Shown one piece after another: positions 9,701 to 60,900 of a stretch of DNA of 64,000 nt. The DNA comes from Nautilus pompilius (Eukaryota > Mollusca > Cephalopoda > Nautilida > Nautilidae). The translations under genes were made by a program, and so were the position numbers. The stretch spans positions 2,928,501 through 2,992,500 of the forward strand of contig JACATO010002186.1 in NCBI GenBank assembly GCA_018389105.1. The letters are read 5' to 3'. The notes below the pieces were generated by a model. It made no database searches and had not been told where the DNA came from. It worked only from the letters and a program-made list of their open reading frames with translations. Positions within the stretch are counted from its first letter, which is position 1, and each line of letters starts with the position of its first letter.

Positions 9701-12700
9701 GTAGAACAGGTATTAGGGCTGCTCAAAGTTTTGGTTGATCATCAGTTCCATGTGCTGGCTAAGGCTCTCATGCAGGTGATTTTTTATTTTATGACAATCT
9801 CTGAATAATCCTAGTATTATCGCTGAACCTTAAGTTAATTGACCACAGGATCAGTTTTTCCACCTCATCACCTAAACTTGCATGTTAGATGGATTGTTTA
9901 AATTAACAAATACAGTTTACTTTTCATTAGCTGGATTAGCACCTGTAGATTGTTTATACTATTTCAACTCTGGTTTTTATCATTATTTTAGGATCATCAA
10001 AACTTACTAAAGACAATGACTTTCAAGCAAATAGTGATCAGTGGAAAAGAGGTAGGTTATCTCCCACTTGCAATGTGATCAGGAAGACAACTGTTTATGT
10101 TTAGACATAAAAGATCTCAAAATTGTGTTGTTCTTAATTACTGATGTGAAATCTTTTTGAAACATTTCTCAAACCCTGACTTAGTTTCATTATTTCTATT
10201 TACTCTCCAATCATGTCCTGCAGATGTGCAGTGCACTCATACAAACTCTCATTGAGCGCTACTTAAATGACCACACAACCATCAGTGTCATCAGCAACAT
10301 GCTGAGAAAGGTGTGTCCTCGCCTGTACAGTAGAGATGATGAAACTTGCTCAGAGGTGAGTTCTATACAATATTATTAAATTAAGGTAATTTTTTTCTTG
10401 TACTTTTATTACCTGCAACAATCTTAACGGTTGCTTTGAAAACAAGTACAATATATGATTTCCCTGGTTCTCATCTAACAACATCTACTACAGAGACAGT
10501 AGCTGAATAAGTATGTAAGAGGTAAAACATTTAAAAGTATTTTTTGTGTATGTTATATCGCTAAGCTTGTCTTTCAAATATTTGCTTTGTGTATGATATC
10601 GAGTTACTTAATATTCAGGTTAATGAACTGCTTCATGCTGCTAGGATAAACCCAAACCAGATGGAGAAGAAGCAGCAGCTGAATGAAGCTTTAAAAGTAA
10701 GCGAAATGATGATGGGTGATTGAAGCGTGTGTTCGTGTGTTCTGAAAGTAATGTGGGTGAGTTTTCTGTCAGAGTAGCTGTGTTAATGCTGATTTAATTG
10801 CTGACAAATTACTGTCTTGGAAATTCAATTTAATGAGCTGTAGCTGTTTGTGCAAAATATCTGATATCTGGACTGCTTCCAGCTCTATAAGGCAATGTCA
10901 CAGCCACTTCAGCTGTCGGAGGTGTGCGCCCAGCTGGCTGGAGCTCAGTACTATGAGGGCATTGTCGACTTGTGCCTGTCCGTGGCTCAGAAAAGGGATC
11001 CACAAAACATCGCCCTGTATTACCACATGAACAGAGACCGGCTTGAAGACACACAAGGCATGCAGGCTTACATGCAGAGGTAAGAAAGATTTCCTTTTGG
11101 AGATTAAACAGAACTGGCCTGTCTTTGGTTGCAAGGGGATATGCATATACTATACAAATGGTAATTTCTGCCAAAATTTATCTTTTTTTTTTAAAAAAAT
11201 AAAAACGAAATAAGCAGATTTTCGGGGTTTGTTTTTCCTTTGGCTGTTTCTGAATATTTAGTAGTGTGGGGAAGCATTAACAGCTTATTTGTCTTTCATT
11301 GATGTAAGAACATTTTTGGCAATAATAATAATAATAATTTGGTTGTGATGTCTATAATATGGTCCCTGTCGAATCATCATTTCTACAATTCTTGTGGTTG
11401 GAGACCTGGTCTGTTGCTTATGCTGAAGTTTATAGTTGTCGTCGCTGACTGATAACTTGTGATCTGTTAGAAAGACAAAGATTTGTCAATTTTGTGGTAA
11501 ATGTTTGGTCGATGAAAGCTAACACTGCCTGGCTTGATGTATTGTGGAAAGGAAGCTTGTTCTAGATCTGCCTGCAAACAAAACGATGATTAACCCTTAA
11601 GCTGTAGCAATTGTAATCATCCTCCTTAGCGTTCGCCGCTAAACTGTCATCCCACAACTAGCGATGAATCTAATAGTCTTCTTCAGATCCTGCCTGCTGC
11701 CATAGAGTTTTGTTCTGAGGGGAGTAGCTGTTGGCCACATTTTCCGTCTCTCTCCCTCCAGAAGTGAACATCTCTGTAGAATGTGTTCAGCTGTCTGATC
11801 CTCTTGACCGCAGGAGCAGGTTGGTGAAGGTATCAGCTTAAACTTTTGGCTCATGTGAGCATTGAGGCAATTGTGTCCAGTTCAGAGTCTCAGCAGAGTC
11901 ACTTGTTGGTCTCTGGACAGTAGGTGGTAGTCATCCCTTTCTGTCTGTGGCCCAAATAATGCTCTGATGATGATCCTCTTCTTCCGAAAGCTAACACTTT
12001 TGTCTGGTTGGTCTTCCTGTTCACCAGCTTTTGCTAGCTCATCTGCTTTCTCGTTCCCTGGTACTCCACATTGGGCTGGGATCGACTGGAGGGCCGCTCT
12101 TCTGGTTCTTCCAACTAACTGTAGAGCATTGGCCAGATGAGGAAGCTTATCATTCTCCATGGCCTGAAGAACGGAAAAAGCATCTGTGAGGAAGACCACT
12201 TGGTGACATTGATCTGCTGATGCCAGTATCATGGAGGTGGCCTGCTCGAGGGCTTCAGTCTCTGCACAGAAGTTTGTGCAGTATCTGCTGGTGGCAACAC
12301 TTGCAGTTGTGGTCTGACCTCCAGGATACTATCAGGATGCCAGCACCCCCATTGGCCATAGCATTAATTGCTGACCCATCTGTATATACATGAATCCATG
12401 CTTCTGACAGGTATTTCTCTTCAATCATGGCCAAGGTGAGAGCTGCTCTTCGCACAATGTCATCCTGTCCTTCCCCTGGTATGACAGCGGGAATTGAAGT
12501 GTGGACTTTGATGTCTGAATGGTCTGAGACCCACAGTTCTGGCTGTTGGAAAGGAATCAATGAGACTGTCTCCTTTGGCAGGTCTTCATGATGTTGTCGA
12601 AACAGTCTTTTGTTCTCATGTACAAAGCTGCTGCTCTTCAGTTGGTTCTTGGTAAGACTGTTCAATTTCTGCTTCATGGGATGGTCTGGCAGACATTTGT

Positions 12701-15700
12701 AATTCTCAGCCAGTATCAAGATCTTTTCTTTCCTCCTTTGACTAACAGGATGGATTGTAGTAAGCTGCTCCGTCTCCCTGATAAGTGTTGACCGCAAGTC
12801 CTGATTCTGCACTCTATCGAGGACCTGCAGATTGGTTCTGGTGGTAGTTGACCATGCAGTGGGGCCTTACTGTTCCCTGGTATACTGTCTTCAGTATCCT
12901 CTCATTCGCTCCCCAGGAGGTGCCTGCCCACTTCCTGAGGATTGCAAGCTTGCATCTGGCCTTTGTTTCTGCTCGCGCGATGTGTGGCTTCCAGATTTAT
13001 CTTTTATCAAAGGTGACACCAAGGTAGGTTGCTTCATCATCCACACTCAGAGGTGTTCCTCCAAGCTTGATGATACCAGGTTTCTGCATGGTCAACAAAG
13101 TGAAGAGGGTTGTGGAGGACTTCGCTTTGTTGATTGATATGCACTAATCCTCTGCCCAAGCATTCAACCTATCTGCTGCTTTCTGCACTCTGTAGGTGGC
13201 AGTTGTAGTGTGTTCCTCCTTACACCAGATCATCTGCATAAAGGGCCGCTTTGATAGTCTTTGGCAGCTCAGACACCAAATCATTGATGAATAGGAGGAG
13301 GAGTATGTGGGGAGAGGACTCTGCCCTTTGGGACACCGTGTCGAAGCAGGAATTTCTTGCTATAGATCTGGTCAACATGGACTCTCACTCTACGGTTAAA
13401 AAGGTAAGCCTTGATCCAGTTGTACATATTGCTGGAGATGCCTGTTCTCAGCAGCTTCACAAGAAGTCCATCTGTCCAGACTTTATCAAAAGCTTTCTGA
13501 AGATCGACCCAGGTAACAAAATCTAGCTTCCGCTCATGAAACACATCATCTATTTCCTGTGATAGGCATGTGGGCTGGTCCTCTGTGCTGCAAAACTGCC
13601 TAAATCCAGCTTGTTCAGGGGCAAGAAGATTCCTGGTCTCAAGGTACCATTGAAGGCGCTCATTCACGATTCTTTCCATGGTCTTCACCATGCAGCTTGT
13701 CAGGCTAAGGGGACGATAGCTGGTTGCCTTCTTTGGATCTTTTCCTGACTTGAGAATAGGTATCGTAACCGCATCTCTCCAGATCTGTGGCAGTGCCCCT
13801 TTTTCCCAGCTGCTGTTAAATACCTCAAGGAGTTTGCACACGGCTGTGCTGCCAAGATGGGTAAGCATCTCGTTGCTGATGCCATCTGGACCTGGTGATT
13901 TCCTTGCCTTCAACTTTTTCAATGTGATATTCATCTCATGCAGTATGAGCGGGAGTTTCATGGGTTCCACAGTGTCTGTATTAGTGGGTCTTTCTCGCTG
14001 TTCTCTTCTGGCTTCTTGCTGTTTTCCAGCACTGACAGGGATGTCACTCTCCTTGGTGTAGCTAGCTGCAAAGCAATCTGCAGCTTTCTTCCCTGTCACC
14101 ACCTTACCATCTTCCGATGTGACTTTGGCTCTACTGTTGTTTTCATCATTCAGCTGCCTTGTGAATTTCCACAACTTTCTGCCATCTTTCTCAGAGTTTA
14201 GGGAGGCTATTTTATCTCTCCAGCTCCTATGTCTTGCTTGAATCTTCATCTCCAAGAATTTGGCCTTTGCTTGCTGGAACCTGATGATGTTTTCTTCAGA
14301 CGGGTTGACTTCTGCTTCCTTCCTAGCTTCTGAGAGGGCATCCTCAAGTTCCTGCAGTTCATTACTCCAGTAAGGTTTATACTCCTTCCGGGATCCCCTT
14401 GGGATGGATTCGTGGGCCACTCTAAGGATGCTATCGTTAAGGTCCTTTACTACCAAGTTGATGTCTCGACGTTGGACTACTATGTCTTTGGTGAGTTTGT
14501 TGGTACGGTGTCGAAAGAGGAACCAATTGGCCTTCTTATAGTTCCACCTTGGGAAAGTAGCTTCAGTGCATAGCTCCAAGCCCAAGGTCAGGAAGACTGG
14601 CCAATGATCATTTCCACCCAATTGTTCCCCCACCTCTCTGTTGGCAATCTTATGCATGTCTTCAGTGCAAAAGGCAAGGTCTGGAGTGGAAGTGCTGTGC
14701 CAGCGCCTAGAATAGAATGTAGGGCAGTCATTTGGGCTGTTCAAAAGAATGAGCCTATTGTCATCCTGCCAATTCTCAAATTCTTCACCTCGCTGATCCA
14801 TGTGGTCATACCCCCAACTCTGTGATTGACTGTTGAAGTCACCTACTATCAAAAAATTGGAAGCCTGTATCTTGATGGTATCAAGGGACAAGGATCTGTC
14901 ATTAGGACATTAGAAGTTAACTAGATGGAAGTATACTGTCTTCGTCTGAATACAGATGACTTGATACTCAGAGTTCTGCATGTACGTATTTATCAGGCAG
15001 GCATTTATTTTATTTCTGACAAGGGTCAGAATACCTCCTTTGCTTCTGTCTGCTCTATCAGACCTGAAGCACTGGTAACCTCTCACCTTGAAAGACTTGT
15101 TGCTCTGCAAATGTGTTTCTTGGATACAGCAGACATTGATATTTCTCTCATGCAGGATATGCTCCAGTTCTGTCTTCTTGTTCAGGACACTTTCTGCGTT
15201 CCAGTGCATGACTATAAAAGGTTGCTGCTGACTGAGACGTCTTTGCAGTTTTATTTTGTGGCCAGTCACTCTCCTCCTGCGCCCCCTAGTGCCACAAAAG
15301 CACCAGGAGGGACCTCCAGTCACTGAAGGTGGATCCCGTTGAGTCTTGGGACCCGACGCTGCTCCATCTTGGAGGGACCTCAATGGGTGAGTGCCATTCT
15401 TGATTATTGTGGATGACAGTGTAACCATTGGCGTAAGGTGCATGGTACTGTGGTTTGCTAAGAGAGTGCACACTGCCCAGTACCTCTGACTTCAGCTCTC
15501 TAGGTTTTCTGTAGGGGTTATCCCGTCCTTAGCACCTGGCTCATACGTCCTACCCTTGGAGCACAGGGGGGATTGTTTCTCTGAGGATCCCACCCTGGGG
15601 CAGGGCTTTTAAGGTGGCCCTTGCCCACCTGCTGGCTCTGTCATGGGACACTTTGGCATAATGGCAGTTTGGTCCATCACTGCTTATTCGACTGGGAACA

Positions 15701-28900: not shown

Positions 28901-30683
28901 TTCATACTGAGATTATATAACTTTGACAGGAATCAAAAGTATGTACTAAAGTCTACTGGATCATCAAATGTAAATCCATATCACCTTTTTTTACTTAGTT
29001 GCATTGCTGCATATAAGGTGGAGAACAAAAATCTTTTGTTCTGCTTTCAGGCGTTTCGGGGGCGGAGGGTTTATGAACGGCCTTTAAATGTAAACTAGAA
29101 TCATGTAATTTCTTTCTACCAGATGCAACCTGATGACATGCAGTCATTGTGGCCATAAAATGTGTTGGGGATGTGGCTGTGAAATTTCAACATATGACCA
29201 CATTTCTACCTGCAAAAAGGTTGGACCAGAGAATGACACACCTTATGTACCACTTCCATTTGTACCAATCCATTTACAGAAGCAAGAAGAACCTGAGGTA
29301 TGTTCTGTGTAGGTAGTTAAATTGTCATCATGTATGTACTGCACATTGGGCAGAAGATTCTTTGCATGCACTGTTACCTGCACTATCTGCTTTTTGCAAC
29401 TTTCGGTCATATTTTACTAATATCATTGAAGATGCTGTATACAATACAATGCATATCCATGTAGTAACTCTTTTCAGACTCTGTTAAGAAATGTTGTCAG
29501 GTGGTTATTCTGTCACTCCATCAAATTGGCTAATACCAGTTTTCTTTCCTTCATAGATAAGTCTAGATAAACTACAGCAATCATAAAACTGCTGCATTGC
29601 TGTCTACAGTACTTTCAATCTCAAATTAATGAACTGTTTATGCATTGTCATTGAAATACTTTGTGGGATGATTTTCTGGATAACTGGGGTATTAAAATAG
29701 TTTTTCAGCACATTTGAAACAAACTGTTAACGTTATTGTCAGTCCTGGTGTTACAGCACACTCAATTCAGAATTTCATTTTTGATAGCACAAGTTCATAT
29801 TCAGCTCACTTTCAAGTCCTGGCCAACACAAATGTCAAGATGCTCAGCTGTTCTCTGATTGAATAATATGGTATGCACTTCTGAGAAACTACCAAGATGA
29901 ATACTCATCAGTTATGATTTGTTTGGCCTTTACTCCCATCTGTACAGTATTAAGTCTATGACATGTGGCAAGTTGAGTTAACACACATTCTTCCACCTAG
30001 CTCTGCAGCCACGATTTGCCTTTGTAGTCTGTAACACATCCTTTGCTTTACACCAGTCTTTAACGCATCTGTTGTTGACATCATTTCCTGTATACAGCCA
30101 TTTTCTCCAGAATACTCAACAACTTCCATGACTTTATGGGAAGCATTTTAAGATGAGGCAGAAGATTTGTTGGGGTAATTGGTGAGCATGCATTTGTAAT
30201 TGATTGGATAATTTTGTATGCTCATTTTTTATTGTTTCATTAAAGTAATTTCAATGACTATCCATAAGTAGACTCTTTCCCCTTGGAAGGCCAGCATTGA
30301 CACATGCTGAAAAAAATTCCCTTCCATAGTATTCTTAACATTCTGCACATCACCTCACTACTATTATCAACAATGAAAGTACAGTAGATGCTGGAAATAT
30401 AGGATCAGTCTGGTAGCATTCTATTCTCAGGCATTAATTACACAAAAATTTATCATTTTAGGCTGCAAAGCAAATGCAAAAAGCCCTTCAGAATGGCAAA
30501 GCAACAAAGGCTGATCTTGTACAGTGTCCATCCTGTCACCATGAAAACCTGAAGCTCAATAAGAACAATCACATCCAGTGCTGGTGTTGTAAGACTAACT
30601 TCTGTGCCAGCTGTCGGAAAAGTATCGGGAAGATGGTGAGCCAGCACTACATGGGCAGAAGTCAATGTAAACAGCATTCGTAA
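22996..30683 (+). CDS. RNF14: RWD-RBR E3 ubiquitin ligase, RNF14-like, complete (541 aa)
   Basis: RBR (RING-in-between-RING) ubiquitin ligase. It takes ubiquitin from an E2 on RING1 and passes it through a cysteine on RING2. Exons: 22996-23034, 23168-23251, 23572-23692, 24456-24690, 25242-25364, 26643-26825, 27432-27531, 27776-27922, 28287-28483, 29123-29297, 30462-30683; all phases fit (1626 nt). RWD domain ~11-170, starting with 'DELLALQSIYD' and holding the YPSDSSPSF signature. RING1 from C218: CGVC, CGH, CQDC, and the last pair CPEHKC supplied by the short exon at 27432. IBR ~296-350 (YCPRC, CMVC, CTEC). RING2 CPNC, then the catalytic position EGC (about C411), CSHC, CWGC. An extra Cys/His module (about 490-541: CPSC, CWCC, CASC, CKQH) follows, which vertebrate RNF14 lacks. 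The symbol is by family; orthology is inferred. Confidence 0.88.
25783..26409. mobile_element. TTAA-bounded inverted-repeat element (piggyBac-type) in RNF14 intron 5
   Basis: TTAA at 25783 is followed by 'cacgcccctcatgagccggg'. The other end, reverse-complemented, reads TTAA 'cacacccctcacaagcccgg' (26406-26409 is the right TTAA). Sixteen of these 20 positions match, and weaker similarity runs further in. Termini starting with CAC after TTAA are known among piggyBac relatives. The 627-bp interior has no recognisable transposase, so it is probably non-autonomous. Confidence 0.65.
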
Positions 30684-30814
30684 TTTACAATATCTGAATA
30701 CAGAAATTTTTTTCCATTTTGAAGAGTATTTAGGTTTGTTTATAAATCTCTTCTTTCTGGTCCACTGATTTCCATTTATGCACCAATGGCTGTGAACATT
30801 GAATTGCTAAGATC

Positions 30815-31030
30815 AAATGGGATGCTTTGGCATCCCTAACTCTGGTCGTTTTACGGCCAGCTACATGAGGTGCTTTGGCGCCTCAACCCGGCCATTTTGG
30901 CCTGCACCAGGAACTTGCTCCACTAGAGGTTTCGGCCTCTCCCACACCCTTCTCTTCAGAGATTCACATGCATACACGAACTTTACACTTGCACATACAC
31001 ACATTACACCACACAAAAAAAATTTTAAAA
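30815..31030 (+). repeat. tandem micro-hairpin repeat, copy A
   Basis: Five short stem-loops in a row: 30819-30836 (GGGATGC, loop TTTG, GCATCCC, perfect), 30842-30860 (CTGGTCG, loop TTTTA, CGGCCAG, one G-U), 30866-30885 (TGAGGTGC, loop TTTG, GCGCCTCA, one G-U), 30890-30902 (GGCCA, loop TTT, TGGCC) and 30925-30940 (AGAGG, hexaloop, CCTCT). A conserved 'ccacacccttctcttcagag' follows, then a CA-rich tract and an A-rich end near 31030. It lies about 130 bp after the RNF14 stop, possibly inside its 3' UTR. A diverged copy sits inverted near 34.5 kb. Confidence 0.65.
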
Positions 31031-31192
31031 AAGATCAATATTATCATATCAAAAACAGGAACATAAATTCCAAGTATGGCCAAGAAATATCACTGTAGAT
31101 CATTTTTTATGGTAAATATTGTTCTTGCACTTGATCTGCAGGTAAAATGAATTTTTAAAGTTATAGGATAGAAGATCAGCTCAATTTGTATA

Positions 31193-34494: not shown

Positions 34495-34635
34495 CTTTTT
34501 GTGTGGTGCTTGCGTATGGGTGTGTGTGTGCGCGTGTTTATCTCTGAGGAGAAGGGTGTGGAGCAAGGGTGCCAAAGCACCTTGTGTAACTGGCTGCCAA
34601 GGCAGCCAGGGTTAGGGGCGTAAGCACCCCATGTT
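34495..34635 (-). repeat. tandem micro-hairpin repeat, copy B (inverted)
   Basis: On the minus strand this reads like copy A at 30.8 kb in the same order: hairpin 1 (GGGGTGC, loop TTAC, GCCCC), hairpin 2 (CTGGCTGC, loop CTTG, GCAGCCAG; 34590-34609, perfect 8-bp stem), hairpin 3 (AAGGTGC, loop TTTG, GCACCCTT; 34566-34583). Then come 'ccacacccttctcctcagag', a CA-rich tract and an A-rich end. Hairpins 4 and 5 of copy A are missing. Confidence 0.65.
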
Positions 34636-34639
34636 TGTG

Positions 34640-36149
34640 TGTTAGTCATCACTTCCCCAGCCAAAAAAAATAATCTTGGGAAAAGACTTAGGAGCAGCCA
34701 GAATTTAATTGTAAACGCCTGGAGAGGTCACAGAGATAAAAGCCAAATTTTTTTTTTTGTCCTTTAACTGATTTTCCATTACAGCTCAGGGGGACAAACA
34801 ATTCTGTTCTGAGGAAAGCACTTGGATAATTTGCATCCTTCCTGCCTACAGGAAGAAGCTGGGTGGCCAGCTCCCTCTTCAGGCTGAATGTGGAACCAAG
34901 CGACTTTACTCTACAGATAGGAATTTTCTAGCTATAGTAAAACTTAAGCACACTCAGAAATTTTTTTTTTTTAGGTTGAGATGCATTGGTATATGGTGTT
35001 GCTTGTGGTGGTCACATGGAGAGGGTTGATGAAAGGGACTACTCATTGTAAAATTTATTTGGGGTTTCAGTGTGATGGGGTGTGAAGGGTAAAATTATAC
35101 TTCTCGCCAGATTTTGTGCAGTTATGTCTGCTCTGTCCTGAGTGTAGTGCCTGCAATCATTAATAGTTTACTAAAATGTTCTTTGAGGAGGTGAACCAAA
35201 GCAGTGAGAATGATGTATTTATGAGATTAGATTTTCCTTTAATTGAACAATGCACAAAAGTTCTATTTTATTGTGTTTTTGTTCCAGTAGTTTTATAAAT
35301 TTAAAGCAGGGCCTATCTGTATTTCTAATATTTCGTATCTTGTGTAGTTTGTACACCATATTGTGCATCTGCCTGTGTGTTGTATAACAGTGCTCTCATT
35401 TAAATTTAAAGTCAACTACAGACTATATACAAGACTAGAAATATTTGGTGCTGTCTGCATAGGAAATCCCTTTACATCTTGATGTATTAGTGATAGAGTA
35501 GAGTAGCTCCAGTCGCAGGCAGAACAGAGGCATTGACAGTAGATACCCTTGTTAGAGCAAGTGATAGAGAACAGTCATGAGGTGTAGCTGTTGATATAAG
35601 CAGAGAGGTTGATGTGTTGATATATAACAATTTAATTCATGTAGGTTGATGCAAAAGGCTTGTCAGTGATCAAGCAATACAATCCAATCCTCAAACAGCT
35701 ATTTTTCTGCCTGGTGTAATGCATGTAGAACAGCAGTTGAAGAAAGAGTAAAGTAGATAGTATTTTGGAGAGAATCTTGTTATCTGTGTTTAGAAGAAAT
35801 ATGGGTTGTCAGTCAGTCACTTCTTGCTATTAGTTTAATGGGCTACAAAAACTTAGTAGGTCCAAGATATTTGTATTTTTTGTTTTGTTTTTTTTTTAGG
35901 AGACTGCTATTAGATATTTCTATTTGTTTTATTATCTGATGCTCATTACTTAGTGTGTGGTATTATTTACTTTTAAGTGCAGTTTAATTAGGGTGACAGT
36001 TGCTAAAGTGTGTTTGCAAATATTGCTGTATTCCTGTGTCCTGTTAATGTACTTTTAAAGCCAGGTAGAAAATTCTTTATATGATGAGTTTGTTTCATTT
36101 TTAAAGTACTTCTTAAAGATTCGCAATTATTTAGTTTGTTTAAATAGGC
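34640..36149. other. intergenic DNA, no feature recognised
   Basis: About 1.5 kb of AT-rich sequence with homopolymer runs. No exon-like frame with splice sites, RNA gene or element end was identified. Confidence 0.4.
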
Positions 36150-38836
36150 AGGTGGGGCATTCCATGTCAAGTGTACACACCCTCCTGACACTAGTACCAT
36201 ATTTTCTCCCCATACCAACTTTCAGACTTTTAGCCCCCTGCCAGCCAGCAAAACCGGTGGTCCCGATATTTTGTGTGGAAAATACCCCTTCATATACTCC
36301 AACACCTCAGCAAAAACAAAAATGGGATCTCCAAGGGTTCAGGATTTTTATTATTTTTTTTTTAGCTGTAGGCCGTAATTATCAAAATTAAAATTAAAAA
36401 ATGCTTGAAACATTTTAGTTTACATGTAATGAGTCTGGAATATATACATTTTTCACTTTCTGAAATAACTGACAAAAAATATTGAGCTCTTCCACGATAT
36501 TCTAATTTTTTGAGATGCACCTGTATATTGCATCATTTGTGAAGCATTCATTCCAATGTGTGAATTGATTTTTAAGTGGATAATCATCATCAAAGTCAAA
36601 TGAGCTAATTTCATTCCTTTTTTTGCATATTTTTCAGCATAAGCATGGCAAGCAAGTTCCACAGATACTGTTGTGACCCATTCAGCTGTCATAAAACAAA
36701 ACAACAAAAAGATCTTCGCAATGTGTCTAATGATAGACTATATTTTGTGCAGGAAAAAACTTGCTAAGTTGTCACCAGAGCATACTGAAGGATCGTCTTC
36801 GACGACATCATCAGAAGGTCCTATCAAAGGAATTGTAGAGTCTGTTTTTACAGATGAGGACAAGAGGTTTTTGAACCAATCTTTATCCATGATAAGGGAA
36901 AGCCCATTCAATAAAAGAAAAGCAGAAAGGAACCCGGGGTACGTTCCTGCAAAGCGAGGTGAAGTGGAAGCTTCTGCGTGAAACAAATAAGATCTAGTTG
37001 CTGGACCAAGCACTATGGAAAAAGCACAAAGTGTGCCATCAAAATGTGATGAAAACTGCATGCCAGAGGTGATCAAAAGTCTGAAAGAAAAATACGTTTT
37101 TTCGAGCCATTCAGAGCAAATATGTATACTGACAATAGTTGCTCGGAATATGGGCATTAGAGGGATGATGAGTGAATTTGGCTGCTCCCAAAGAATGGTT
37201 ATACAAGCCAAAAATTTAGAGAATGTCATCATCTCCCACTCCAAAACAGTAAAATATTGCCAGAGCAAGTTAAATCCGCTGTAACTGAATTCTATTGAAG
37301 TGATGAAGTCAGCTAAATAATGCCGGGGGAAAAAGACTTTCTGGTAGTCAGGAATGAACATGGAAAAGGAAAAAAAATCAAAAGTGCCTGGTACTAAACA
37401 ATCTCAAGGAACTGTTTCAGAAATTCAAAGAGAAGCACCCTAACTTGAAAGTTGGATTTTCAAAGTTTGCCATGCTCCATCCCTGTGTGTGTGTCCTGGC
37501 CGGTTCAAGCAGTACTCACGGTGTGTGTGTGTGTGTGTACGATCCATCAAAATGTGAAACTCATGATGATTGGATCGAAAATGCCACAGATTGCCGAACT
37601 TTCCAGATATCATTATGTGATAGCACGCATAGTTTTCAACCCGGCACGACTGGCATTTTAACATAAGAATTGCAAAGCCTTCCTAAATCTATGTCGTCAC
37701 AAATCAGAGTACGGATGGAAAGGGCTTTTCAGATGGAGTTGGAGGCACAGTCAAACGAGAAGCAACACATGAGAGCTTGCATAGACCATACGACAGGCAA
37801 ATTATTTCTCCAAAAGATCTTTTCGCCTTTGTTGAAAATGGGCTGAATGAAATGAAGTTTGGTTACGGGACCCAAGAGGTGTACGAGGAGGAGAACGAAA
37901 CCTGGAAGACAGGTTAAAAACAGCCAGAACCAAAGATGGGACTCAAAAACTCCATGCTCTCATCCCTATTTCAGAAACTATTCTTCAAGTATGCAAATTC
38001 AGCCTACACCAACTTTTAACGGGAAACTCTCAGGTTATGTCAAAGTGAACTATGACGGACAATGGTCGCTCAGGACATTCATGAAGTTCATCCAAATGGG
38101 CCCTCAAATAGTTTCTTTTTTTCCTGAAATTGAAGATCAGTGTATATTAGACATTTCCGATATTCTTCTTTCTGTAGAACCAAAAACTGCTACAGGAAAA
38201 ACCTACACAATCAGTAAAAAAGAAATCCAGTTGTCAAATAAAGCTTTGGTTGGCAAAAAACCCTGACTGACTTTGCTAGGCAAGACTTTTACTAATATCG
38301 GTGGAAACTTGATTTCTTTCTATGTTGATATCTAGTACTAGAATACAATGATATAGTGTATTGGAAATCTTGCCTTGTGTCGTGTATGGTGATGACACGA
38401 CATAAAACTTTGCCACATCTGAACCCTTGGAGATCCCATTTTTGTTTTTGCTGAGGTGTTGGAGTATATGAAGGGATATTCTCCACACAAAAAATTGGGA
38501 CCAACGGTTTTGCTGGATGGCAGGGGATAAAGGTCAAAGGGCACCGTCAATTACCACTTTTGGAATTTCTATTTTGAAGTGATTTTACTTACGTGATTGG
38601 AAAGATATTGCTCTTACGAGCATTTTGATACCAAGATCATCCAGATTGGACCAGTACAGCCTGAGATAGATATAGTCTCTGAAAGTTTGTGGGTCAGCCG
38701 GGGAAGTCCAAGGCCCCAGTTGGGCCCCAAAGGTCTGAAAGTCGGTACATAATGTTTCACCATAGAAACAAACACCTGCATGAAAAATGAGTGAAATCTG
38801 AGACGGTGTGTACATCTGATGTGGAATACCCCAGGT
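36150..38836 (+). mobile_element. 2.7-kb DNA transposon with long terminal inverted repeats
   Basis: Left terminus 'ggggcattccatgtcaagtg' (from 36154) and right terminus, reverse-complemented, 'ggggtattccacatcagatg' (to 38832). They are flanked by the direct repeat AGGT at 36150-36153 and 38833-38836, a possible 4-bp target duplication. The inverted repeats are several hundred bp long and include near-identical blocks at about 36239-36341 and 38424-38525; translated, these blocks agree at nearly every residue. The right arm carries about 200 bp of extra sequence. A transposase-like ORF runs left to right in the middle but is broken. Confidence 0.7.
36673..37900 (+). pseudogene. broken transposase of the 36-38.8 kb element
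   Basis: Fragments in one orientation. 36673-36981 has 'ESVFTDEDKRFLNQSLSMIR' and ends 'KRGEVEASA'. 37015-37284 has 'IKSLKEKY' and 'ARNMGIRGMMSEFGCSQ'. From ~37410 there are pieces reading 'KHPNLKVGFSKFAMLHP', then a THGVCVC-like run and 'HDDWIENATDCRTFQ'. Near 37730-37860 another frame reads 'DGVGGTVKREATHESL'. I know these motifs from a multicopy animal transposase family but cannot name the superfamily. Several frame breaks show it is inactive. A (GT)n run at ~37519-37538 interrupts it. Confidence 0.55.
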
Positions 38837-40989: not shown

Positions 40990-41030
40990 GATTGTTTGGA
41001 AAGAAATTTCCTCTCCCAATTTTGGATGTC

Positions 41031-41918
41031 ATGACCTTACAGTGCAACCAGATATTTTACATGTGTGGGCGCTGTGATAAGTCATTCTTTTGTGAAGATC
41101 ACCTTAACAAGCACTTCCGGAGTCATTCAGGAGACAGACCCTTTAGATGTGATTATTGTCGTAAATCATTCTCCCTGCTCTCTTATTTAAACACACACAT
41201 TAGGACACACACTGGGGAGAAACCATACAAATGTGATTTCTGTGACAAGTCCTTTGCAGTGCTTTCCAATCTCACTACACACATTAGGACACATACAGGG
41301 GAGAAACCATACAAATGTGTTCATTGTGACAAATCGTTTTCACAGCTGTCTATTCTCAACAGGCACATCAGGATTCACACTGGTGAGAAACCTCATGAAT
41401 GCCAACACTGTGGCAAGTCTTTCACTCAGCGCTCTTGTCTCAATGAACACGTGAAGATTCACACTGGGGAGAAGCCACATAAATGTGACTATTGTGACAA
41501 GTCATTTACTCACCTGTCAGATCTCAATGCTCATGTTAGGACGCATACTGGGGAAAAGCCTTACAAATGTCAGCAATGTGGTGCAGCTTTCTGTCAGCTT
41601 TCTCATCTTATCAGACACACTAGGACTCACACAGGTGAAAGACCATTTAAGTGTAAGCAATGTGATAAATGTTTCTCACAGCTTTCCAATCTTAGCAGAC
41701 ATGTGAGAACTCACACAGGAGAAAGACCATATAAGTGCAAATACTGTGAGGCAGCATTTTATCAGCTTTCTCATCTCATGAGGCACACTAGGACCCACAC
41801 AGGAGAGAGACCCCATAAATGTGATCAGTGTGAGAAAACTTTTTCTCAGCTTTCTCATCTCACTAGGCATATTAAAACTCACAAAGAAAGATCATCATTA
41901 CAAATATTTGAAAGTTAA
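41031..41918 (+). CDS. C2H2 zinc-finger protein with ten tandem fingers
   Basis: Putative sequence-specific DNA-binding nuclear protein. The frame is open from 40992 (just after TGA 40989-40991), and the first ATG is at 41031, giving 295 aa in one exon. Ten consecutive C-x2-C-x12-H-x3-H fingers run almost end to end, joined by canonical TGEKPYKC-type linkers; the first linker is SGDRPFRC. Fingers 7 and 9 share a QLSHLxRHTRTH core, suggesting internal duplication. There is no KRAB, SCAN, BTB or ZAD domain, so effector function cannot be told. An AATAAA follows at 41937-41942, 19 bp after the stop. Upstream exons are uncertain. Ortholog not assigned, because fingers of this type are too common. 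Confidence 0.85.
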   Translation: MTLQCNQIFYMCGRCDKSFFCEDHLNKHFRSHSGDRPFRCDYCRKSFSLLSYLNTHIRTHTGEKPYKCDFCDKSFAVLSNLTTHIRTHTGEKPYKCVHCDKSFSQLSILNRHIRIHTGEKPHECQHCGKSFTQRSCLNEHVKIHTGEKPHKCDYCDKSFTHLSDLNAHVRTHTGEKPYKCQQCGAAFCQLSHLIRHTRTHTGERPFKCKQCDKCFSQLSNLSRHVRTHTGERPYKCKYCEAAFYQLSHLMRHTRTHTGERPHKCDQCEKTFSQLSHLTRHIKTHKERSSLQIFES

Positions 41919-57900: not shown

Positions 57901-60900
57901 AAAAACATTTTAAGGATAGTTATCACCAACCTAGTTCACTCTATTTCAAAACTGAAAGTTTAAAAAACTTTGTAGATGTCTGATTTAGTAATATATTTAC
58001 CTTTTAGATTATTCTGCATCTTTTATTTTCACGAAATATCAATGATACCATAAAGAAGGTAAAGCCAAGGTGCTTCACAGTTCCATCAATCATGGCTGCC
58101 TAGTTAATGGGTCTTAAGCTCTCCATCAAAGTAGTCATTGTAGTTATGTTAAAAGTGGGTGTACAGTATATAAACATTCTTACAGAAGTGCACCCCTTCA
58201 TCTACATTTTATATTACAGAAATGTACGTGGAAGGAAGCTATGTAAAGGCAAAAGTTCTCCGTCCTGACTATGGAATGACTAATGGTATTATCCATTACA
58301 TTGATAGAATATTTGGTATCCCTGACATGGATATTCCTTCATTAATATTCAGTGAGAACTGGTTAAAGGAGTAAGTTGTGTATTTTGTTTTATACTGGAT
58401 TGACACCCTTTATGTTATGGTAGTCATTTTAAAGTGAAGCTCGTTTAGTGAGATCTTTATTGTAGTTCTTATCCATAAGAAATATTTATTTTCTCATTAA
58501 AGAGAGCAGGAAGTTAAATAAGGTTGTTGTATATAAGGTAAAGAAAAGTTTAAAGCGATTAGCACTGCTATCATTAGTAATGATTTCTTTCTAGATTAAT
58601 TTATTCATGCACTTTTAATAAGTTTTATGCAAGCCAAAAAAACTTCTGCTACATTCTCTTCTGTACTGTCTTGTCACTGTCAGAGTGGACTTAGTCAACA
58701 GAAGATGGGCCTGTCAGCCATATTCATGGCAGTCTTGATTTTCAATGGAATATGGTCAAGAAAGAAACATTTACAGACAGAATAATTATTTCATGTAATT
58801 AATAATCAATGTATTTTTATTATAACAGTCATCCACCATCTATTCTGAATGTGTTCATTATTCATGGATGACAGAAGTATTTAAAAGTTTTGGTCTTGAT
58901 TTCAAATGTTTTTCAGAAGGACATATTATGCATACCAGGTGACTGGTTTGCTGAATGCTCTCCAAGACCCTACCAAAGATGACTACAAACTCAAATATAG
59001 TGATGAGCTGTGCCCACATTATACTAGATGTGATTTCACTGTTTTTGTACCTAATGGAACAGCCATAGAAAACTTTTTGTTGAACCAAAATAGCCGTGAA
59101 ATAGCCCGTAACAAATATTCCTTCAGATATGTGAGTTTTGTTACTTAATAATGTTATTTTCCTTTATTCTGAGTGTCACTTTTACATGTATGTACTGAGG
59201 GAACAGAGTTCTTTAGAGGTGTCCTTACACCTCATCCTTTCTAGCTCACTCTTTAGGACCTTAATGTCATGGTTGAAGATTCCTGATGATAACAATGGCA
59301 ACTTGTGTATAATACAATGAGTTTTACACTTTCTGTTTGGCATATGAGCTACAGTGCCGGACAAAGGAGTTGGGACACTTGCTGTGAAATTGATATTTGA
59401 GCTCCCTTGTTTGAACAAACGCATTTAAATACCCATCACATTGTTTATTATTTGCACAAAACATACCTTTACAATGTATAAAAACAACACATGCTATATG
59501 TTTACATATTCTCTGGAAAAAATATTTGAATCGGCAATGTCCGATTTGTACCGCGACAAAAGAGTTGGGACAGTGAGCAAAACCATGAATATTTTTCAAC
59601 ATTCCAAATTACAATCGAACAAATGCATGGAAATGATCAACTGACTAGTAGTGGATGGTGTATCCATGATTTTCGTTCACTTCTCGAAAACGATGGGGCA
59701 TGGATTCGACCAAACGAAGGCAGTCGGAATGGGCCATTTCCTGCCAGCTTTTCTCGACGGCCTGCCAGAATTGGTCTTGGTTGAGATTCTTGTGTTTGGC
59801 CACCTTGGCCTTCAACTGCTTCCAGGCATTTTCAACTGGGTCGAGATCCGAACTTTGGGACGGCCAGTGCATGACATCCATTCCTAGTTGGGTGGTGAGC
59901 GAAGTGACGACTCTGGTGGAGTGGATCGGGGCATTGTCGTGCTGGAAGATGGCAGTGACTGGCTTGTTCTCGTCGATGTAGTCGAAAACGACATCCCTCA
60001 GTAAATTGCAGTAGGTCTGGGCGGTCACTCTGCCCCTGATAAACTTGAGTGGGCCTGGTCCCGCTGCGCTCATACACCCCCAGACCATCAACGATCCTCC
60101 TCCGGCCTGTACTGTCAGTCGGGTGCACTTTATATTGTATTTTTCGCCATGGTAATGTCGAACGAATACTCGGCCAGCACTGTGAATGTGCATGATCATC
60201 GTTTCGTCGGAAAAGAGAACTCTAGCCCATTGAACTTTGGTCCAGTTTTTGTGCGCTTTAGCCCATGCTATGCGGATGCGCCTGTTCTTGTTGCTGATCA
60301 ATGGCTTTTTCTGGGTGATTTGTCCAAAGAGATTCCCCTCGCATGGACGACGTTGGATAGTGTGACTGGAGACATTCACCCCACTCCGGGAGGCTCGAAT
60401 GGCCGTCGATGTCAGGAAATGATTGGCCCTGGATTTGTGACAAATGAGTTGATCCATTTGTTGTCACATTTTCGATGTCTTCTGATTTCAGACGACGCTG
60501 TCTTGCCAGGCAAGGTGCAAAAATGATCTTAAATGGTCTTAGATGATGTGGTTCTATTCATTTGATCCTTTAAAAATGAATATATTGAGGGGAATAAATG
60601 TATGCTCAGATTTTGTTCACTGTCCTAACTATTTTGTCCGGCACTGTATATCACATCAGCTGGAGTTGTTTTGACTTAATGTAACAAATAGTAACTACAA
60701 ATGAATGGTAATAACTGGAACATGTTATACTTTGTATAGAATAGAACATTATCTAGGTTTTATTAAACAGAATGTGTTATAATTTATTAGTAAAGTAGTA
60801 AGGGGGCTGGATACATCAGATACTCAACCATTGTATCATAATTGCAAGGCTTAGGGTTTACACTGGTTGGATGGTAAGACTACTTTGTAGTTGATTAATT

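Follow-up and report, generated by a model that had tools for sequence, protein, structure and literature searches.

Two copies of SINE-1 in the window

The window, which is the whole stretch of 64,000 nt of Nautilus pompilius DNA that was analysed, contains two members, copies A and B, of an interspersed repeat family of approximately 570 nt, here named SINE-1. Both were recovered when the window was compared by blast with the two subfamily consensus sequences. From the stop codon in a putative terminal exon (30465-30683) to the start of copy A there are approximately 130 nt, and the copy may thus be part of a 3' untranslated region; the exon was without a Pfam family, and a PDB search gave nothing better than E 0.18. 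The features of the two copies are as follows.

30809-30816, plus strand: 5' target site duplication AAGATCAA, within the U2-like target GCTAAGATCAA (30806-30816)
30817-31019, plus strand: SINE-1 copy A, truncated at its 5' end and covering positions 370-570 of the consensus, 93% identity to the subfamily A consensus
30819-30836, plus strand: hairpin GGGATGC TTTG GCATCCC (consensus GGGACGC TTCG GCGTCCC), from sequence and fold
30842-30860, plus strand: hairpin CTGGTCG TTTTA CGGCCAG, from sequence and fold
30867-30884, plus strand: hairpin GAGGTGC TTTG GCGCCTC (consensus loop TTCG), from sequence and fold
30890-30902, plus strand: hairpin GGCCA TTT TGGCC, from sequence and fold
30910-30921, plus strand: decayed hairpin (consensus GGAG CTTG CTCC), from sequence
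30926-30939, plus strand: hairpin GAGGT TTCG GCCTC, from sequence and fold
30951-30962, plus strand: terminal hairpin TCTC TTCA GAGA (consensus TCTC TTCG GAGA), from sequence only, beyond the folded stretch
30963-31030, plus strand: CA-rich 3' tract and A-rich tail, from sequence
31031-31038, plus strand: 3' target site duplication AAGATCAA; its first A's are possibly part of the tail
34499-34684, minus strand: SINE-1 copy B, subfamily B, hairpins lost by internal deletion, from alignment and blast (34684-34499)
34615-34630, minus strand: copy B hairpin GGGGTG CTTA CGCCCC, from sequence and fold
34590-34609, minus strand: copy B hairpin CTGGCTGC CTTG GCAGCCAG, from sequence and fold
34568-34581, minus strand: copy B hairpin GGTGC TTTG GCACC, from sequence and fold

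The terminal hairpin of copy A is preceded by a CCACACCCT box. The first-pass annotation had delimited the repeat at 30815-31030, which is correct in position but incomplete, as copy A is only the last part of a longer element. It had also placed copy B near 34.5 kb in inverted orientation, and this was upheld; the actual start of copy B lies approximately 54 nt upstream of its first hairpin. Rfam gave nothing at gathering score on the window, and a tRNA search with ARAGORN found none in it; the SINE-1 copies in the window are without the head described below. Elsewhere in the window there are LINE remains with endonuclease and reverse transcriptase domains (11882-15491, minus), an inverted repeat of 108 nt whose arms are 94% complementary and 2 kb apart (36235-36342 and 38419-38526), a C2H2 zinc-finger frame with nine zf-C2H2 stretches (40992-41918, plus), and a Tc1-like transposase frame with DDE_3 and HTH_Tnp_Tc3_2 (59645-60463, minus).

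When 30815-31030 was searched against the genome of the animal itself (727.6 Mb in 2558 contigs), 966 candidates were obtained, the best 40 scored matches having 83-100% identity, and all SINE-1 copies examined are best-scoring matches of this kind (individual loci are given L numbers). In the aligned and oriented loci, other copies extend upstream of the part present in copy A through more hairpins. The subfamily A consensus is 570 nt long; that of subfamily B, whose upstream half was taken over from A, has 534 nt. The longest copies consist of the start of U2 snRNA, tandem hairpins, several with TTCG loops, a CA-rich tract, and an A-tail. In a set of 64 copies, from which the near-duplicates L020, L027, L035, L037, and L045 and the locus L081 were left out, the 3' end is constant and the 5' ends vary, with consensus starts from 1 to 397; an A-tail is present in 62. 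The shared 3' end, A-tail, variable 5' ends, and target site duplications are hallmarks of a SINE (retroposon). Five near-identical locus pairs (L026/L027, L034/L035, L036/L037, L044/L045, and L019/L020) were also noted, which suggests uncollapsed haplotypes or duplications in the assembly.

The hairpin body and its paired arm changes

The stretch 30815-30960 folded at -54.5 kcal/mol, compared with -40.8 +/- 4.0 in 200 dinucleotide shuffles (z -3.45; none of the 200 as good), so the five hairpins originally noticed in copy A are real, and two more (30910-30921, decayed, and 30951-30962) were recognized by sequence. Copy B, folded over 34700-34530 on the minus strand, gave a z of -2.22, with 5 of 200 shuffles as good. 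The subfamily A consensus has eleven successive hairpins within its 3' half alone, of which four have a TTCG loop, three of these being closed as C(UUCG)G, a very stable loop. The TTTG loops in two copy A hairpins are consensus TTCG loops after CpG loss. The description of a repeat family built of tandem micro-hairpins was thus borne out by family alignment and fold statistics.

The first-pass annotation had further observed that, where arm sequences differ between copies A and B, the partner arm changes with them, and had seen in this a sign of selection on RNA or DNA structure, or of a hairpin-generating copying mechanism. The observation is literally true of the two copies, but the examples quoted mix CpG decay with membership of two subfamilies. 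For the palindromic CpG in GGGACGC/GCGTCCC, 34 copies were counted, with the pair CG in 16, UG in 8, CA in 6, UA in 2, and other in 2; the column counts predict 2.6 UA pairs. As these counts are approximately those of independent decay, GGGATGC/GCATCCC in copy A, one of the quoted examples, provides no evidence of selection.

More broadly, the arm changes could be mutation artefacts only, arising by palindromic CpG decay and by arm-to-arm copying at quasi-palindromes, with no selection on RNA structure. The UA class just described agrees with this, as does the finding that CpG positions deviate from the consensus approximately 2 to 5 times as often as other positions; in single copies, 27% of stem cells at CpG differ from the A consensus, against 10% of the other stem cells. 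Arm-to-arm copying could yield compensated changes as well. Stems and loops of A copies also decay alike, with changes outside CpG and TG/CA in 8.7% of stem, 8.9% of loop, and 12.6% of spacer positions, and outside CpG only in 10.0% of stem and 12.2% of loop positions (38 copies, one counted twice, as L081 is L004; the near-duplicates named above and L058 were left out; the pair counts at the palindromic CpG come from the same set). In B copies, the corresponding values outside CpG and TG/CA are 2.8% for stems, 7.2% for loops, and 10.3% for spacers, in a set biased by the use of the stem-rich copy B as query.

Against a purely artefactual origin stand the cells changed on both sides outside CpG, which numbered 51 in A copies, 27 of them paired, where 23.6 were expected, and 7 in B copies, 2 of them paired, where 0.9 were expected; such an excess would be expected of subfamilies separated by coupled changes. 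Of 45 stem pairs compared between the consensus sequences of A and B, 10 have changed and all 10 are still paired, 4 by double change, whereas only 2 of 20000 runs with randomly placed A/B substitutions broke no pair. For this comparison, arms paired in both subfamilies were picked by hand, and hairpins lacking a B counterpart, namely three further upstream and GAGGTTTCGGCCTC, were not included. Compensated changes outside CpG include AU to UA in GGCCA/TGGCC and UA to AU in L084 and L089.

Covariation was assessed on three hairpins in 55 of the 61 SINE-1 copies with a match, out of 64. In these, 91.4% of 1096 cells are paired, falling to 37-59% when the partner is slid, and 48 cells are changed on both sides, against 20.2 in shuffles; one AU/GC switch between A and B accounts for 23 of the 48. 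The covariation score was reached by none of 500 shuffles, which ignore kinship among copies. Some A copies (L014, L024, and L086) have U opposite U at the fourth pair of the first hairpin aligned, which counts against strict constraint. In A copies the stems change about as loops do outside CpG and TG/CA, yet there is covariation across the subfamilies, and the claim of conserved pairing holds at that level. The artefact explanation is accordingly considered unlikely, and the retention of pairing in every pair changed between A and B argues that structure is kept in the source elements.

The U2 head and the landing site

The head of SINE-1, present in the longest copies, is the first 28-32 nt of a U2 snRNA gene of the same genome, with non-U2 sequence after it. 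The longest copy, L004 (the same as L081), starts at U2 nt 1 and matches at 27 of 28 positions over nt 1-28, and five others start at nt 2-4; the head of L003 is identical over nt 3-27 (25/25), and L083 and L086 match at 25 of 27. In the subfamily B copies L036 and L038 the match reaches nt 32. The variant matched is that of the U2 gene L063, with CTTCTCTGG in the first loop, and not the CTTTTGG variant (L061 and L062); the promoter regions of L063 and L061 showed no likeness above shuffles (116 of 500 as good). The Rfam U2 model gave no match to the heads, which are short, in 15 SINE loci at E up to 1. An Rfam match to SCARNA7 in the same loci was dismissed as chance (score 17.7 bits, gathering threshold 65). 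In place of the landing core GATCAAGG of the subfamily B head, subfamily A has GAAGG; having lost the core, it would be spared self-insertion.

An ordinary pol III SINE with a tRNA, 7SL, or 5S head, resembling U2 by chance, would have the length, A-tail, and truncation of SINE-1, and one A-box-like string does occur at consensus position 20. No B box was found by the pattern used, however, and the A consensus has four runs of at least five T, likely to stop pol III; together these suggest transcription by pol II rather than pol III. The consensus head, whose first bases were set from the few longest copies, matches the own-genome U2 gene at 28 of 28 positions (E 2e-8), and we regard a chance likeness as very improbable.

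The favoured SINE-1 sites are themselves U2-like. They read GGCTAA|GATCAAAG, where U2 itself has GGCTAAGATCAAAG. A G directly follows the A-tail in 55 of 62 copies, against 131 of 536 control A-runs from the same loci, and the tail is followed by GAT in 26 copies, GATC in 16, and GATCAA in 10 (14, 4, and 1, respectively, in the controls). The 29-nt 5' flank contains CTAAG in 18 of 64 copies, where approximately 1 was expected from 4287 control windows. Among the 40 copies in which truncation extends beyond the head, 15 have such a flank; this count excludes L021, whose CTAAG, one of the 18, is part of the copy's own decayed head. Target duplications, for which the first-pass annotation had proposed to look, were found. 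Those of at least 8 nt flank 7 of 62 copies (shuffled mean 1.1, maximum 4), and six are convincing, 8-11 nt long, and all at GCTAAG or GGCTAAG, although their first A's may be tail; copy A is among the six, at GCTAAGATCAA. The seventh, at L033, was rejected as probably not real.

A purely DNA-based mobile element (a MITE, foldback, or Helitron-like element), with hairpins produced by DNA copying, is hardly credible in spite of the high palindrome density and of some internal deletions that seem by eye to join similar CTTCGG loops, since SINE-1 is bounded by a U2 head and an A-tail and not by terminal inverted repeats, the 3' end is constant with variable 5' ends, and the duplications begin at the A-tail junction. 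MITE, foldback, Helitron, and tRNA, 5S, or 7SL SINE assignments were thus considered and dropped. SINE-1 can instead be assigned to a known kind, the snRNA-headed SINEs, to which its U2 head, A-tail, and target duplications correspond; the first-pass annotation had known of no standard SINE or MITE with such a design.

Other residents of the U2 site

In 11 of 37 distinct SINE-1 copies, another repeat, here named SINE-2, follows the copy (by eye). SINE-2 is likewise a SINE family headed by U2 sequence, and it keeps the landing site GATCAAAG in that head (L091-L110; for example, L104). From its best 40 scored copies 20 were fetched, and the U2 match starts within nt 1-8 in 7 of these. In several SINE-2 copies (L104, L099, L105, and L106) it runs past the landing site, so SINE-1 has landed in SINE-2 heads that derive from U2. 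The likeness may reach nt 64 in some copies; in L104 it lies at approximately positions 134-195, reverse complement. By eye, L107 and L109 have SINE-1 inserted in SINE-2 from the other side, and L095 has SINE-2 in SINE-2.

Genome-wide, 47 exact matches were counted to AAAAGATCAAAGTGTAGTATCTG, in which an A-run is followed immediately by U2 from nt 27, and none to its reversed control. By blast, neither SINE-1 nor SINE-2 precedes any of these exact junctions (in U2 loci only U2 heads match), so SINE-1 was not seen inside a U2 gene. Upstream of all 47, of which 36 were newly fetched and 11 were already among the U2 loci, are the 3' ends of several other families (by eye). At least three kinds of 3' end were noted at one U2 insertion point, namely CA-rich tails, an GACTGACAATAGGAGAAG end, and a purine-rich end (L111-L130 and L132-L147; the purine-rich end in U2 loci fetched earlier).

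Three of the 47 junctions adjoin L1/Tx1-like LINE reading frames. The LINE L131, upstream of one junction, has an AP-type endonuclease, RVT_1, and zf-RVT, and compared with solved structures it is closest to L1 ORF2p (1e-53; R2, 2e-18); this endonuclease and reverse transcriptase point to the L1/Tx1 group. The C-terminal frame is similar, by eye, in L064 and L067. When SINE tails were compared with LINE tails, 6 of 24 comparisons reached the 5% level or better, and for the best of them 2 of 200 shuffles did equally well.

Two further loci (L148, L149, and L150; C851 and C1494) contain U2 nt 1-45, with 44/45 and 41/45 matches, and then leave U2. In both, the stretch before nt 1-45 resembles the promoter region of L063 (0 of 500 shuffles as good). 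In L150, approximately 860 nt past the U2 part, there is a 411-residue frame with a C-x2-C-x4-H-x4-C string. A Pfam search with E up to 1 gave no match for it, and it is possibly the first frame of a LINE, in which case a LINE would sit behind a U2 promoter.

Proposed origin and relation to known systems

The preferred reading is that SINE-1 resembles SINEU elements and is moved by a U2-targeting LINE. We consider it very likely that it is a U2-headed SINE whose RNA serves as template for the reverse transcriptase of a U2-nicking LINE, primed at the A-tail, with duplications of 8-11 nt and frequent 5' truncation. Observed directly were the head, the A-tail, the truncation, the preference for the target, the six duplications, and LINEs that adjoin the same U2 position. 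In the proposed sequence of events, the LINE enzyme would nick U2-like DNA at GGCTAA|GATC, the A-tail would prime copying of SINE-1 RNA at the nick, and insertion would leave the duplications, often with loss of the 5' part. The enzyme may come from one of the U2-joined LINEs, and the head would have arisen when an ancestor lay within a U2 gene and was read from its promoter. The hairpin body would be a feature acting at the RNA level, through stability or enzyme recognition, and would be kept in a few source copies while inserted copies decay.

A broader scheme is put forward tentatively, in which U2 genes serve as a retroposon nursery: LINEs and an ancestral hairpin RNA would insert at nt 26|27, gain a U2 head when transcribed from the U2 promoter with a start at U2 nt 1, and recruit further copies through that head. 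The U2 part would then be expected to end one duplication length past the cut at nt 26, which the observed ends (nt 32 in subfamily B, approximately nt 34 or later in SINE-2) fit only roughly.

SINEU elements, reportedly described by Kojima in 2015, are a recognized class of SINEs with U1 or U2 snRNA heads, and the crocodilian ones reportedly prefer insertion into another repeat and are probably moved by a Tx1-type LINE. SINE-1 resembles them in its 5' U2 head, its non-coding nature, its probable movement by a Tx1-type LINE, and its landing in another repeat, and differs from them in its tandem-hairpin body and in that its favoured target is U2 sequence itself, between nt 26 and nt 27 of the local gene. 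SINEU stands as a class name in the class list of Repbase. Neither a U2-headed SINE outside crocodilians nor a tandem-hairpin body was found in the titles and abstract openings that made up the literature searched (most subscription papers and Repbase lie outside it), which is no proof of novelty.

According to the paper on U2-targeting LINEs (PMC4640811), Keno and Utopia insert at a common site, and for Utopia of Phytophthora the U2 sequence is taken up again at nt 39; Utopia has a restriction-like endonuclease and occupies U2 genes and U2-like sites, with several families in one genome. L131 resembles Keno, of the Tx1 clade, in being an AP-type endonuclease LINE in U2 genes, but is followed by GATCAAAG, that is, by nt 27 of the local U2 gene instead of nt 39. 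The Nautilus elements share with Utopia the U2 genes, the U2-like sites, and the presence of several families in one genome, and L131 differs from it in endonuclease class and site. Neither L131 nor the other junctions seen, which were collected with a search pattern fixed on the nt-27 junction, resume U2 at nt 39.

The head, the SINE landing site, and the LINE insertion site in U2 genes coincide in one genome, and a route of birth by insertion into U2 and transcription from the U2 promoter is therefore testable here. How SINEs gain small-RNA heads is usually guessed from sequence. The multi-hairpin body with compensation at the subfamily level is, in addition, an unusual natural set for studying what RNA structure a LINE enzyme may need.
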